Assembly (NCBI RefSeq): GCF_007993035.1
Contig: NZ_VOOS01000003.1
Span: 337,501 to 401,500, forward strand
Length of the DNA: 64,000 bases
Source: Vicingus serpentipes
GTDB lineage: Bacteria; Bacteroidota; Bacteroidia; Flavobacteriales_E; Vicingaceae
Direction: 5' to 3'
Each line of letters opens with the position of its first letter. Position 1 is the stretch's first letter. The notes beneath the pieces are model-generated. The model did no database searches, had not been told where the DNA came from, and was given only the letters and a program-made list of their open reading frames with translations. A program made the translations under genes and the position numbers. Positions 37,918-43,498 of the stretch are shown here, piece by piece.

Positions 37918-39363
37918 TTACAGAATTGCTGCTTGAACACGTTCAATAAGTTTTAGGTTATTTTCCATCAATTTATTTTCACTTAGTTCTTTTATAATTA
38001 AGGAAAGTTTGTCAGAATATTGTTTGCTTTTTTTAAGTTTTAACTGAGCTATATAGTATAAAGCTCTTATTATTAAGTCGTTCTCTTTTACTGAAACTTC
38101 ACCTTTAGTAACTTTTTTGTATCGATTAAAAGTATCCACTGTATCTTCATATTTTTCATCTTGAAAATAGGCCATAATAAGTACTACAAATATTCCATCA
38201 TATAGCTTGTTGAATTGTTTTTGTTGGTATTCATGTAATATTTTTTCAATTAAGTTTGAAGCTTTATTGGCTTTTTTATTTAAGATAAGATAGAGTGCAT
38301 GTACGTTACATATGTTTATGTATTTTAGGTGACCTTCAGTTTTCCAATCTGTATTTTTAATTAATTGATTAGTAAAATCAGACACATCTGAAATTTCTAG
38401 TTTTAATTTTTTTGGAATAGTATTAAAATAATAATTTGTAATATAATAAGAGCCTTTTATACTTATCGCCATTGTTAATCCAATGTCTAACTTACTGTCT
38501 GTAGGAAAATAATTTTGCCATTTTTTTATGATTAAAGAACAAGCTTTATTCATTTCTTTTTCATCAAGAGTTAATCGAGTATGTTTTACCAACATATAAT
38601 CTAAACTCATTAATTTTTCTGTGTATTGAGCTATAATTAAATAGCCATATTTTTCAGTTTCTTTAATGGTATGATTAATTAGTTCAAGAGTATTTTTGTT
38701 ATAGAAATCAGAATGATTGCAAGTACTCAAAACATTTAAATAAGATTGTTTCGCTAATATTTCAACTGATTTTGATGTTGAATTAAACAAACTTGTAAAT
38801 TGTTTCAATTCGCTTGAGGTAACTCCTTTTTTTGATGAGGTATTTTCTTTTATAATTTTATTTTGGAGATAAAGTAAATGTTCAATTTCATTTAAATATT
38901 TTAGATAATCATTTTTTAGGATTGAATTTGCAAACGATTTTTCTATACCTACTTGTTGTTTAATAATTCGAGTTAATTGAATGAGTAATTGATAATTCTC
39001 GAATTTATCAGCCACCTCTTTTACATATTTAATTTTATCATTTAGTGTCTTTTTGTTATTTTTAAAAATAAGCCATTCAATTTCTTGAATATTATGCCAT
39101 AAAAAAGAGGGGAAGTTTTGACTAATAAAAGAAAAAAGTTTTAATGTATGATGTGCTAATTGATTTAGCTTTTTGATTGATTCTTTACTATTGTTGTTAT
39201 AAATTTTATCAGAATAAAATTGGATGTTTTCATAAGGGTTGGTTTGTATAGTTTTTATAAGTGTAGCAGATAGTTCATGATTGTTTTGAATTAAAAAATC
39301 ATGAAATAAGCCTAGTAATTCTGTCTGGCAGCTATTACATACTTTTTGAATGAGTAGTTCCAT
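37918..39363 (-). CDS. Helical-repeat protein upstream of uvrB, unknown
   Basis: A 481-residue, Lys/Asn/Leu-rich, all-helical soluble protein with no signal peptide, membrane helix or catalytic motif. Near the start is a Cys pair (CNSC, residues 9-12). Its architecture, an N-terminal helical module of about 100 residues followed by degenerate TPR-like hairpins such as DGIFVVLIMAYFQDEKYEDTVDTF, mirrors the protein at 29581-31122. It ends 9 bases before uvrB and shares its strand, so co-expression with excision repair is likely, though a shared function is only a guess. ATG at 39363. Confidence 0.75.
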   Translation of the reverse strand: MELLIQKVCNSCQTELLGLFHDFLIQNNHELSATLIKTIQTNPYENIQFYSDKIYNNNSKESIKKLNQLAHHTLKLFSFISQNFPSFLWHNIQEIEWLIFKNNKKTLNDKIKYVKEVADKFENYQLLIQLTRIIKQQVGIEKSFANSILKNDYLKYLNEIEHLLYLQNKIIKENTSSKKGVTSSELKQFTSLFNSTSKSVEILAKQSYLNVLSTCNHSDFYNKNTLELINHTIKETEKYGYLIIAQYTEKLMSLDYMLVKHTRLTLDEKEMNKACSLIIKKWQNYFPTDSKLDIGLTMAISIKGSYYITNYYFNTIPKKLKLEISDVSDFTNQLIKNTDWKTEGHLKYINICNVHALYLILNKKANKASNLIEKILHEYQQKQFNKLYDGIFVVLIMAYFQDEKYEDTVDTFNRYKKVTKGEVSVKENDLIIRALYYIAQLKLKKSKQYSDKLSLIIKELSENKLMENNLKLIERVQAAIL

Positions 39364-39450: not shown

Positions 39451-40848
39451 ATGGAAAGAAAAATAATAAGAAATACGCAAGAAATTTTAGTTATAATATT
39501 ATTGTTTGGCTTAATGTTTATTGCCTCAGAAATGTTTGCTCAGCATCAAGTTGGACATACACAAATAACTTTTCAAGATGCAAGCAGAGGAAACAGAGCA
39601 ATACAAACGGAAATATATTATCCAGCATCTACATCTGGCGATGATGTTTCTATAGTTGCTGGTCAATATCCAGTAATTGTATTTGGGCATGGTTTTGTGA
39701 TGGCATGGAGTGCTTATGAAAACCTATGGCAATCTTATGTTCCAAGAGGTTACATTATGATGTTTCCTAGAACAGAAGGAAGTTTAACAGGAACAGATCA
39801 CCAACAATTTGGATGGGATTTACAATTTTTAGTTACAGAAATGCAAAATGAAGGAGCAACTCCTGGATCAATATTTTTTAATGGGGTAGCTCCAGAAACT
39901 GCTTTAATGGGACATTCTATGGGTGGTGGAGCTTCTTTTCTGGCAGCAGATTCGTTAGTAGCAAATGGAAATATCAATCTTAAAACATTGGTGGGGTATG
40001 CTCCCGCCGAATCATCAACTAATGGAGTTTCCTCAATAAATTCAGCACTTAATATAACTGTTCCATCTGTTGTTTTCTCAGGAAGTAACGATGGAGTTAC
40101 ACCAGCAGCAGATCACCACACACCAATGTATGATAACTTGGCCAGCAATTGTAAAACATTTATAAATGTATTGGGTGGTGGACATTGTTATTTTGCAAAC
40201 ACCAATACGAATTGCGATTTTGGAGAAAGTACATCATCTACAGGAATTTCAATTACTAGAGAAGAACAACAAGATATTGCTCAAGATTTAACAAACCTTT
40301 GGTTGGATTATATGCTAAAAGGAGACTGTGATGCTTTCGATTACTTCCAAGATTCATTAGCTAATTCTACTCGAATTTCTCATTTACAAGAATGTGCGGT
40401 AAACCCAACACCTATAATTGCTGATAATTCTGGAGATTTAACTTCTTCTACAACAGGTGTGAGTTATCAATGGTATCTGGATGGAAACCCGATACCAGCA
40501 AGTAATAGTCAAACAATTACGGCAACTCAAGACGGTGATTATACTGTTGAGGTAACTTATGCTAATAGTTGTCCTGAAACTTCAGCACCTTATACAGTTA
40601 CAACAACTAGTCTAGCAGAATATGCTTTAAAAGATTTTACAATTTATCCAAATCCGACAAAAGGCTTAATCACTATTAAAGGCGTTGGTTTAAAAAATGT
40701 TGAAGTACAGTTATATAATTTAGTAGGAAAGTTAATAACTAACTTTTCAGTAGATAATAATGAAACAATAAACTTAAGTAATTTACCAGAAGGTGTTTAT
40801 TTATTGAAAGTAAACGGAACTACCAATCGAATTATTTTATCAAAATAA
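39451..40848 (+). CDS. Secreted polyesterase/cutinase-like alpha/beta hydrolase with T9SS domain
   Basis: A 465-residue exported hydrolase: signal segment to about residue 31 (...MFAQ), catalytic domain (about 32-310), an Ig-like domain (about 318-385, VSYQWYLDGNPI) and a T9SS sorting domain (about 395-465, IYPNPTKGL). The triad is Ser156 in GHSMGGGA, Asp214 in SGSNDGVTP and His245 in GGGHCYFAN. The elbow and the spacing of ND...P..YD...K.F...GG.H..AN resemble cutinase/PETase-type polyester hydrolases; the region before the elbow is less similar, so lipase, acetylesterase or chlorophyllase-like activity is also possible. It probably acts outside the cell. ATG at 39451. Confidence 0.82.
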   Translation: MERKIIRNTQEILVIILLFGLMFIASEMFAQHQVGHTQITFQDASRGNRAIQTEIYYPASTSGDDVSIVAGQYPVIVFGHGFVMAWSAYENLWQSYVPRGYIMMFPRTEGSLTGTDHQQFGWDLQFLVTEMQNEGATPGSIFFNGVAPETALMGHSMGGGASFLAADSLVANGNINLKTLVGYAPAESSTNGVSSINSALNITVPSVVFSGSNDGVTPAADHHTPMYDNLASNCKTFINVLGGGHCYFANTNTNCDFGESTSSTGISITREEQQDIAQDLTNLWLDYMLKGDCDAFDYFQDSLANSTRISHLQECAVNPTPIIADNSGDLTSSTTGVSYQWYLDGNPIPASNSQTITATQDGDYTVEVTYANSCPETSAPYTVTTTSLAEYALKDFTIYPNPTKGLITIKGVGLKNVEVQLYNLVGKLITNFSVDNNETINLSNLPEGVYLLKVNGTTNRIILSK

Positions 40849-40887: not shown

Positions 40888-40920
40888 AAAAAGTCCTCCC
40901 AATTTGGGAGGACTTTTTTT
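40888..40920. terminator. Bidirectional terminator between convergent genes
   Basis: AAGTCCTCCC (40891-40900) pairs with GGGAGGACTT (40906-40915) around AATTT, with flanking A-run and T-run. It can end both the hydrolase transcript and the DUF5723-OmpA transcript, whose stop codon touches the stem. Confidence 0.9.
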
Positions 40921-43498
40921 AATTTTGAATAACTGTCATTTCAACTCTTCTGTTTTTTTGTCTACCTTCTTTAGTTTTATTGTCAGCAATTGGTTTTGTT
41001 TCTCCAAACCATTTCACCTCAAATCTTGAGGAATCGACTCCAGATTTAGTTAAAAATTCTGCTACAGCTTGAGCTCTACCTTTAGATAGTCTTAAATTAG
41101 AACTTGCTGCTCCTTGACTATCTGTATGTCCAGCGATGCTAAGTGCCCAATCTGGTTTTTTCTTTAATAATAAAGCTAAATCAATTAATGAAGGAAGTGA
41201 AGTTTCTTTAATTTTTGTTTTACCTGTTTCAAATTCTAAATTAGCGAAAGCAGTATTTAAGATTTCTTCTTCTTCTTTTGTTAATTCAAGAGCAGCTCCT
41301 TTTTTAATAAAAGTATAAGCGTAGTGAGTGCTATCTTTTTTGAACGCTCTAATCTGTGAAATACTATCACTATTTTGTAAAGCAATATCTATATATGGAG
41401 GGTATTCTCCATCAGAAACTTCTAGTTCAAATAAATAACTTTTATCTGGAGATAAATTGTTGAAAATAAATTTTTCCTTACCAATCAATAAAGTATCAGA
41501 TGCTAATATTTGATTCATACTATCAACTGAATGGAGTAGTTTTAACGGGCATCCTTTGTTGGAAGTAGGTCCCGGAAGTTGAGGACATCCATCTTCTTTA
41601 TCCATTAATCCATCACCATCTGTATCTGGGCAACCATTAAATGTTGGGATTCCAGGAGTATCCGGACAATCATCTTCTTTATCCATAATATCGTCACCAT
41701 CTCTATCTGGGCAACCATTAAATTTAACCAAACCAGAATCTGTTACACAACTATCTAGTTTGTCCATAATTCCATCATTATCTGTATCAGGACAGCCATT
41801 AAATTCTACAATACCAGAATCTAGCGGGCAATCATCTTCAGCATCTTGAATACCATCATTATCTGTATCAGGACATCCTTTAAAAGCCCACACTCCAGGT
41901 ACATCTATACAGACATCAAGCTTATCAGAAACTTTGTCTTTATCTCTATCTTTAGGTCTTCCATAAGGAATAGGTAATTTTAAAGCAACATAAAAATCAC
42001 CACCTCTTATTTTTGTATCTTTTCCAGGGGCAAAAAATGGTTTAATATCTCCTGTTCCAACAACAACAGGACCTGCTCTTAAACCAACACCATACCTAAA
42101 ACCTGCAACAGTATTATAAGATAAAGGAAGAGAAACTCCCCACCATCTTTTCTCCCATCTTGGGGTAATAGCAAAATTATTTGGATAGTGCACTGCATTT
42201 CTGTCTTTAAGAAATAATAAGTTTAAACGCATATAATAGTTTGCGTATATATTTTTCCCAATATGATAATCAACATCAATATTTGCATGGGTTGGTAAAT
42301 TCATAAAGTATTTTCCGTCATCATTTCTAAAAACAATATCTCCACTATCAGCTAGATTTAATAAAGTTGAGTCAAGAGTCCTAAAACCTTCTACGCCATC
42401 AAAAGTTTGTAAATCAAAGTTGCTGGTATTAAAAGAAAAGTTTCTACTTAAGGAACCCTTTTTATAGGTCATACCACCAATGTCATTAATTGCGGCACCA
42501 ACTCTTACTTTGTATTTATTTTGGTCTCTTCGCCATAAATCGGTTTTATTATCCATGTCGTATTTAAAGTCTCTGTAATTTGGTCTCCATTCGTATACAA
42601 TTCCAACATCTAAACCTAGCCCAAAATTTGAAGCACTTTTAAGAAATTCTCCTGCACTGAACTCTTCTCCGCTATTATCTTCAGGTTCAATATAGCCACC
42701 AAGGTTATCAGAATATCCATAGTCAAAATCACCTTGTATAAAGTTTGCTGTTGAATCGTTTTGAATGTTATAGTCAACATTATCAGAATAGAAATAAAAT
42801 GAGCCAATTCCTTGCAAGAATTTTAATTTACCTCCAATTTTCCAAAAATGTTCGTTATCATCTTTTAATACTTGAGCATAAGCAAAGTTGTATTCGTTCC
42901 AGGAGTTCATCGATAAATTGAGATTGGCATCTTCAAGATTTAAGTTAAAGAGTTGTTGATAATCAAACTCTCTTCCAACTAACCTTATCAGCTCAGGAGA
43001 AACTTTATCTAGATTAAATAAAGTTCTATTTTTAATTTGAAACCCTATAGATATTTTTTGGTTTATTGAAATCATAATATTGAAAATATCTATTTCAGTA
43101 TTTACAAAAGCAGAACGATCTTTATTTCCATTATTGAATTCAACATATTGATCGACGCCTTTATTTTTATAAAAATCAATAGAATCAGCAGAAACTAATT
43201 GATTTAAATCTTCATTATTCATCCAAGCATCAGATTTTGGATCGTCTGCATCAAATGATTTTATCCAACCGTAAGGCATGTGTTTTGGATTAAAATAAGC
43301 GTGATTATTATATCCATAAACAGAGGCGCCGAAAATAACCATATCCATTTTCATCCTATTATCAGCAATTGAAGCAGGGTTAAGATCTAAACCCATTACT
43401 CCCGAATAGTTACTTTGACGGATGCCTAGAAATTCTTGAGCATTTGCATTTGTGATGAAAATGCATATCGAAATTATTAGAGTTATTTTTTTAAACAT
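40919..43498 (-). CDS. DUF5723-OmpA outer-membrane protein with thrombospondin type 3 repeats
   Basis: An 859-residue exported protein. Signal peptide 1-20 (...ANAQ); a large beta-barrel of the DUF5723 type (about 21-520, SGVMGLDLNPASIADNR); five Asp-rich thrombospondin type 3 calcium repeats (about 520-650, GCPDTDNDGI units); and a C-terminal OmpA peptidoglycan-binding domain (about 750-859, ELSIAGHTDSQG-like block with GRAQAVAEFL and NRRVEM). It should anchor the outer membrane to peptidoglycan; related fusions occur near gliding and T9SS machinery, but nothing here proves such a role. ATG at 43498. Confidence 0.88.
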   Translation of the reverse strand: MFKKITLIISICIFITNANAQEFLGIRQSNYSGVMGLDLNPASIADNRMKMDMVIFGASVYGYNNHAYFNPKHMPYGWIKSFDADDPKSDAWMNNEDLNQLVSADSIDFYKNKGVDQYVEFNNGNKDRSAFVNTEIDIFNIMISINQKISIGFQIKNRTLFNLDKVSPELIRLVGREFDYQQLFNLNLEDANLNLSMNSWNEYNFAYAQVLKDDNEHFWKIGGKLKFLQGIGSFYFYSDNVDYNIQNDSTANFIQGDFDYGYSDNLGGYIEPEDNSGEEFSAGEFLKSASNFGLGLDVGIVYEWRPNYRDFKYDMDNKTDLWRRDQNKYKVRVGAAINDIGGMTYKKGSLSRNFSFNTSNFDLQTFDGVEGFRTLDSTLLNLADSGDIVFRNDDGKYFMNLPTHANIDVDYHIGKNIYANYYMRLNLLFLKDRNAVHYPNNFAITPRWEKRWWGVSLPLSYNTVAGFRYGVGLRAGPVVVGTGDIKPFFAPGKDTKIRGGDFYVALKLPIPYGRPKDRDKDKVSDKLDVCIDVPGVWAFKGCPDTDNDGIQDAEDDCPLDSGIVEFNGCPDTDNDGIMDKLDSCVTDSGLVKFNGCPDRDGDDIMDKEDDCPDTPGIPTFNGCPDTDGDGLMDKEDGCPQLPGPTSNKGCPLKLLHSVDSMNQILASDTLLIGKEKFIFNNLSPDKSYLFELEVSDGEYPPYIDIALQNSDSISQIRAFKKDSTHYAYTFIKKGAALELTKEEEEILNTAFANLEFETGKTKIKETSLPSLIDLALLLKKKPDWALSIAGHTDSQGAASSNLRLSKGRAQAVAEFLTKSGVDSSRFEVKWFGETKPIADNKTKEGRQKNRRVEMTVIQN
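41545..41945 (-). repeat. Thrombospondin type 3 repeat array in OmpA-family gene
   Basis: Five in-frame units with the pattern GCPD(T/R)D(N/G)DGI.D..D.C encode calcium-binding loops between the barrel and the OmpA domain. Each unit is about 28 residues. Confidence 0.85.

Follow-up and report, generated by a model that had tools for sequence, protein, structure and literature searches.

A T9SS-exported PETase-fold hydrolase of Vicingus serpentipes belongs to a clade without the clamp tryptophan and probably acts on natural esters

Introduction

PETase-profile matches in Bacteroidota are read as plastic degraders. Among the described enzymes, PET27 and Kaistella jeonii PET30 (structure 7PZJ) combine a PETase fold and catalytic triad with a T9SS tail and have Phe and Met in the binding motif. 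The third residue of the aromatic clamp is Trp in PET27 and Tyr in PET30. On its own, this residue does not settle whether an enzyme acts on PET, because PET28 and PET29 retain Trp yet are inactive on PET, whereas PET30 acts on PET with a Tyr (PMC8767016). PET30 mutants with IsPETase-type residues lost activity (PMC8767016), and for IsPETase a review table lists about 5% residual activity for W185A (PMC8669999). PETases have also been delimited by the signatures M2 (GGGG after Ser-Met), M4 ([PG]-G-[YF]) and M5 (DxDxRxxFxC) (PMC12224614).

A further candidate, PET38 from the freshwater bacterium Fluviicola taffensis, is listed as low in expression and inactive on pNP-C6/C10, tributyrin, PCL, BHET and PET (PMC8767016, Table 1), with Impranil not determined. 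It was one of four candidates dropped over expression trouble, and its expression hosts included T7-Shuffle cells (PMC8767016). In PMC9772341 it serves as an inactive homologue.

In this study, we analyzed a gene in a window of 64,000 nucleotides of Vicingus serpentipes DNA, whose product (P0001) had been predicted from sequence to be a secreted, polyesterase-like hydrolase. We propose, with a rough probability of 0.68, that P0001 is a stand-alone, T9SS-exported carboxylesterase for natural esters rather than a PETase: its fold is modeled, its triad, clamp, tail and clade are read from sequence, and its catalysis and substrate are deduced from these.

Results and discussion

Gene and protein organization

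The gene runs from ATG to stop at exactly 39451..40848 of the forward strand, on which all protein features below also lie, and encodes a 465-aa protein that the ORF, Pfam and the model together describe as a T9SS-exported PETase-fold hydrolase; the reverse strand opposite contains many stops. The putative signal peptide (residues 1-30; 39451..39540) has a hydrophobic helix at residues 9-28 in the model and an Ala-Gln cleavage site judged by eye. It is followed by a catalytic alpha/beta-hydrolase domain (residues 31-317; 39541..40401), which is delimited by its structural match to IsPETase chains and contains the Pfam match at residues 54-254. Next comes a predicted Ig-like domain (residues 320-384; 40408..40602). 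This domain, also named in the original prediction, is supported by beta strands in the AlphaFold2 model and by its recurrence in relatives, but the profile scores near residues 326-384 stay below their curated cut-offs (PKD 19.6 against 23.5, Ig_2 18 against 27).

The T9SS tail that had been claimed is firmly recovered: the type A sorting domain (residues 396-465; 40636..40845) scores 52.7 bits with PF18962 (residues 398-462) and 49.6 bits with TIGR04183 (cut-off 23), both above cut-off. The same genome encodes the T9SS translocon SprA (2634.5 bits), and with both elements present P0001 classifies as type A cargo. The protein would leave by Sec export and then T9SS passage, and is presumably located at the surface. 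The esterase is present in a single copy in the genome; 28 other matches are confined to the C-terminal part of the query, from residue 317 onward.

Genome context

Both neighbours of the gene lie on the opposite strand. Upstream is a divergent gene for a 481-aa protein without Pfam match (37918-39363, reverse strand), followed by a gene which, from its sequence, we take to be uvrB. Downstream lie genes for a DUF5723-OmpA protein, TrkH and TrkA. An intrinsic terminator with a 14-pair stem (40888..40918) is predicted between the esterase gene and the convergent gene at 40919-43498; the 51 nt around it fold at -22.3 kcal/mol (z -6.65). Because of the opposite-strand neighbours and this strong terminator, the esterase gene is monocistronic by layout. 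An operon that would reveal the substrate is ruled out by the orientation of the neighbours, and no functional partner is evident at the locus. The uvrB gene and the divergent 481-aa gene adjoin the esterase in loci L001-L009 (9 of 21 loci searched), at 44-49% identity, and are absent beside it in L010-L021, where flanks are sometimes short; we read this company as local synteny of one order. As a sign of a PET catabolic context, the tannase/MHETase family PF07519 was sought in the genome and gave no match, but it gave none in the controls either, so that this negative carries no weight.

Fold and family assignment

Pfam ranks PF12740 PETase first for P0001 (58.9 bits against a cut-off of 28; 6.7e-16), and 29/29 aligned relatives also match this family at E 0.001. 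IsPETase chains are the best matches in a PDB sequence search (1e-13), and profile-profile comparison with PETases gives an E-value of 5.8e-30. An AlphaFold2 model built from 22 sequences (the window plus L001-L021; mean pLDDT 84.7) shows the PETase fold. Among the 50 matches listed by Foldseek, all are IsPETase or its variants, and the 50 listed by VIA-align have Z 28.2-30.0 and rmsd 2.1-2.2 Å over 237-243 residues at 18-22% identity; the PET30 structure 7PZJ is not among the 50 listed by either program, an absence that counts neither for nor against. Individually, IsPETase superposes at Z about 28 and rmsd 2.2 Å over 238 residues with about 22% identity. Pfam, PDB and profile-profile matches thus agree with the earlier reading as a PETase-fold serine hydrolase. 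P0001 falls outside the BHET hydrolase BdeA (NF051441), with 29.4 bits against an equivalog cut-off of 520.

Phylogenetic position

The family was defined as 81 distinct sequences, from the loci fetched, that score at least 130 bits with an HMM of the catalytic domain; the next match has 69.3 bits. Since these loci had been selected for matching P0001 or PF12740, the sample leans to close relatives, with members at 25% identity included. A tree of 86 rows was made from these 81, PET30, two PET30-like sequences (L199, L200), IsPETase and LCC, with PET27 left out. A 100/100 branch, 2.04 changes per column long, separates the 81 family rows from the other five, a split to be read with caution as long branches meet there. 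PET30 groups with L199 and L200 (100/95), and PET38 lies inside the 81-row clade.

P0001 thus belongs with PET38, with which it shares 41% identity over 442 aa and an Ala at the position of the clamp Trp; we refer to this group by its clamp residues as the F-M-A clade. PET38 also has the HGF loop, His117/Asp123, the Cys loop after the catalytic His and the T9SS tail, but comes from a freshwater Fluviicola and from another sub-branch. It is the sole published clade-mate found, and titles and abstract openings of open-licence PMC papers yielded no description of the clade. The suggestion that P0001 may represent a distinct secreted esterase branch therefore holds. Membership in the PET27/PET30 subcluster is ruled out by the tree and by an identity of about 25% to the PET30-like L199 in the catalytic part; with PF12740, PET30 scores 190.8 bits versus 58.9 for P0001. 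At 366 aa, PET30 is also the smaller protein, in which neither an Ig-like domain nor a Cys loop after the catalytic His is seen. The supposed closeness to PET27 and PET30 as a polyesterase is not supported, given this identity, the lack of a clamp Trp/Tyr throughout the family and the recorded inactivity, at low expression, of clade-mate PET38.

PET38 (WP_083800582.1) was recognized here by ORF length and motif as the L197 homologue, which, translated from an internal Met, yields 447 aa, has Ser as residue 7 and carries F-M-A, fitting the entry in PMC8767016. At L197:1176-2516, the published 447-aa protein begins at this internal Met, and the 459-aa frame beginning MKTKLLLLILVF supplies a full signal peptide and the 19-20 cleavage site quoted in PMC8767016. 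PET30 corresponds to L198 (366 aa), in which F80, W152, M154, Y178, G195, T200, H230, V232, C262 and C285 are all present and which by eye resembles the printed 7PZJ chain.

Active site and clade hallmarks

The triad, homologous to that of PETases, consists of Ser156, Asp214 (40090..40092) and His245; S156, M157, D214 and H245 are invariant in 81/81 members. The nucleophile elbow G154-H-S156-M157-G-G-G160 (39910..39930) is part of GHSMGGGA (154-161), followed by ND...P..YD (213-228) and GGGHCYFAN (242-250). The order of these motifs is that of polyester hydrolases, as had been claimed; as to spacing, the claim stands for Asp-to-His (31 residues both here and in IsPETase) and fails for Ser-to-Asp (58 versus 46).

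The aromatic clamp, left unconfirmed in the original prediction, is settled by alignment as Phe82-Met157-Ala186, without Trp or Tyr. In the joint alignment, Phe82 pairs with IsPETase Tyr87, Met157 with Met161 and Ala186 with Trp185. In an independent profile-profile alignment, in which the family was set against PET30, its two relatives, IsPETase and LCC, the family Pro-Ala likewise stands opposite the Pro-Tyr of PET30. Ala occupies the Trp position in 81/81 members, while the PETases compared carry W or Y; the complete motif is F-M-A in 80/81 and Y-M-A in the remaining one. P0001 therefore has the triad and the Met after Ser of PETases and lacks their (Tyr/Phe)-Met-(Trp/Tyr) clamp. IsPETase and LCC share its fold and its Ser-Asp-His residues and differ from it in their Tyr-Met-Trp clamp, four-Gly elbow and disulfide of the C273-C289 type. 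Compared by reading with the definitions of PMC12224614, P0001 shows GGGA, HGF and KGDCDAFDYF at the M2, M4 and M5 sites and matches none of the three signatures; by those definitions it would count as a pseudo-PETase.

Besides the triad, His80, Tyr89, His117, Asp123 and His155 are invariant in 81/81. His80 opens the first oxyanion/clamp loop H80-G81-F82 (39688..39696), in which it takes the place of IsPETase P85, so that the PGY/PGF of the PETases compared (PGF in PET30) is HGF in the F-M-A clade. H117 and D123 (39799..39819) correspond to IsPETase S122 and Q126. Glu187, adjacent to Ala186 (40006..40011), is present in 68/81 members and aligns with D186. In PMC10546322, engineers coupled IsPETase S121 to D186 (S121E/D186H), and by analogy the polar pair His117 and Glu187 may lie near each other beside the cleft. 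H117 is not the engineered position itself: the alignment places it at S122, next to S121.

Two cysteine pairs covary. Cys246 and Cys255, which bound a loop directly after the catalytic His (H245 and loop: 40183..40215), are both present in 78/81 members and both absent in 3/81; Cys234 and the C-terminal Cys (315 in P0001) occur together in 72/81 and are jointly missing from 8, with the two disagreeing in 1. The losses sit in about three lineages of the tree, and Cys293 varies independently. Disulfides C246-C255 and C234-C315 are hence probable from this pattern. That the family conserves several cysteines may be part of the reason why PET38 expressed poorly, even though T7-Shuffle cells were among its hosts.

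Function and possible substrates

As a carboxylesterase, P0001 would use Ser156, activated by His245/Asp214, to attack the carbonyl of an ester, with the backbone amides of Phe82 and Met157 holding this carbonyl as likely oxyanion contacts. With Ala in place of the clamp Trp and an additional loop, presumably disulfide-pinned, behind the catalytic His, its acyl site is expected to differ from that of PETases. Judged by IsPETase W185A and by PET28, PET29 and PET30, the missing Trp would lower PET activity without precluding it. Since the branch always lacks one of the two aromatics that grip PET, plastic is probably not what it naturally acts on; aliphatic or small soluble natural esters, or else a polyester of natural origin, are the most likely substrates rather than PET. 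Catalysis in the clade is something we can only infer, because PET38, poorly expressed as it was, showed no activity even on tributyrin and pNP esters. The F-M-A clade thus combines scores above the Pfam PETase cut-off with an invariable lack of the clamp aromatic and a published inactive candidate, and it points to an unexplored natural ester substrate. The clamp-site Ala, the HGF loop and the Cys loop after the catalytic His provide a filter that separates F-M-A enzymes from those resembling PET27 and PET30.

More tentatively, the F-M-A clade might be a large family of natural esterases in aquatic Bacteroidota, in which the scaffold of PETases is put to use on another substrate, a polar one. 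Here, the space left by the Trp would form a dedicated recognition pocket together with the invariant His80, Tyr89, His117 and Asp123 and the nearly invariant Glu187. We hold this for possible rather than likely; if true, PETase-profile searches systematically mislabel F-M-A enzymes as plastic degraders.

It is unlikely that P0001 is a real but weak polyesterase, acting on PCL or other aliphatic polyesters and perhaps slowly on PET, in which the lost Trp is compensated elsewhere. PETase as best Pfam family, the retained Phe-Met and a T9SS tail as in PET27/PET30 (PMC8767016) are in line with such an activity, and Porphyromonas enzymes with other clamp residues are active on PCL (PMC8767016, Tables 1 and 3). 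Against this stand the invariant Ala, the long branch away from PET30, IsPETase and LCC, the failed GGGG and [PG]-G-[YF] signatures and the negative PCL result for PET38, the last obtained at low expression.

We consider it improbable that P0001 hydrolyzes lipid or acyl esters and is closer in function to chlorophyllase or PAF-acetylhydrolase, which are likewise alpha/beta hydrolases. Their profiles do reach the family: at E 0.001, chlorophyllase PF07224 matches 29/29 relatives and PAF-AH II PF03403 14/29, and one relative, L018, exceeds the PAF-AH cut-off (21.8 bits). For P0001, however, PF07224 gives 40.1 bits (cut-off 26) over residues 69-194 only and PF03403 12.9 bits (cut-off 20), so that on scores neither is the best family and the PETase profile leads over more of the domain. 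Among PDB sequences, the 60 that score best by profile carry the names PET hydrolase, cutinase, lipase, DLH-domain protein or PBS(A) depolymerase. The original prediction had called for a PF12740 search and named, as the outcome against it, a best hit to either of these families in a clade without polyesterase. The outcome is mixed: the search came out in favour of PETase, but the clade contains no proven polyesterase. An exported, catalytically silent binding protein, as the inactivity of PET38 on every substrate assayed might suggest, is very hard to reconcile with a full triad in 81/81 members, and low expression can account for that inactivity.

Distribution and further relatives

Matches occur in 15/46 genomes of the order at E 1e-30 and in 138/395 of the class at 1e-20, the latter an upper bound because some of the rows listed are hits to the Ig and tail region alone. 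Within the family to which L063 belongs (a locus titled as from a Crocinitomicaceae bacterium), 49/120 genomes match at 1e-30, and the phylum, searched with the catalytic domain only, gives 10/395 at 1e-15. In the family of a Chryseobacterium genome, PF12740 is found in 11/296 genomes at 1e-12, three of which score at least 165 bits. No relative was found in viral contigs, and plasmids gave one match only, to the tail alone.

A Neomarinimicrobiota MAG (L018:4395-5486) also encodes this catalytic domain, in a sequence that the tree nests among those of Bacteroidota. There, a dockerin type I domain (26.5 bits against a cut-off of 22.9) replaces the Ig-like domain and T9SS tail; a transfer with tail swap is likely. 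This MAG (G1088) has further PETase-family genes of up to 145.8 bits, including one with PGF and Trp at the clamp (L212), and these are candidates for true PETase-like enzymes in Marinimicrobia. We dropped the idea that published Marinimicrobia homologues of PET27/PET30 are F-M-A members, as G1088 has both an F-M-A gene and a higher-scoring PGF/Trp copy. Two adjacent esterase gene copies are found at L169 (genome G718). In some relatives (L155, L167, L183, L013) the frame is interrupted by a TAA stop or is shortened, which suggests occasional gene loss or assembly errors.
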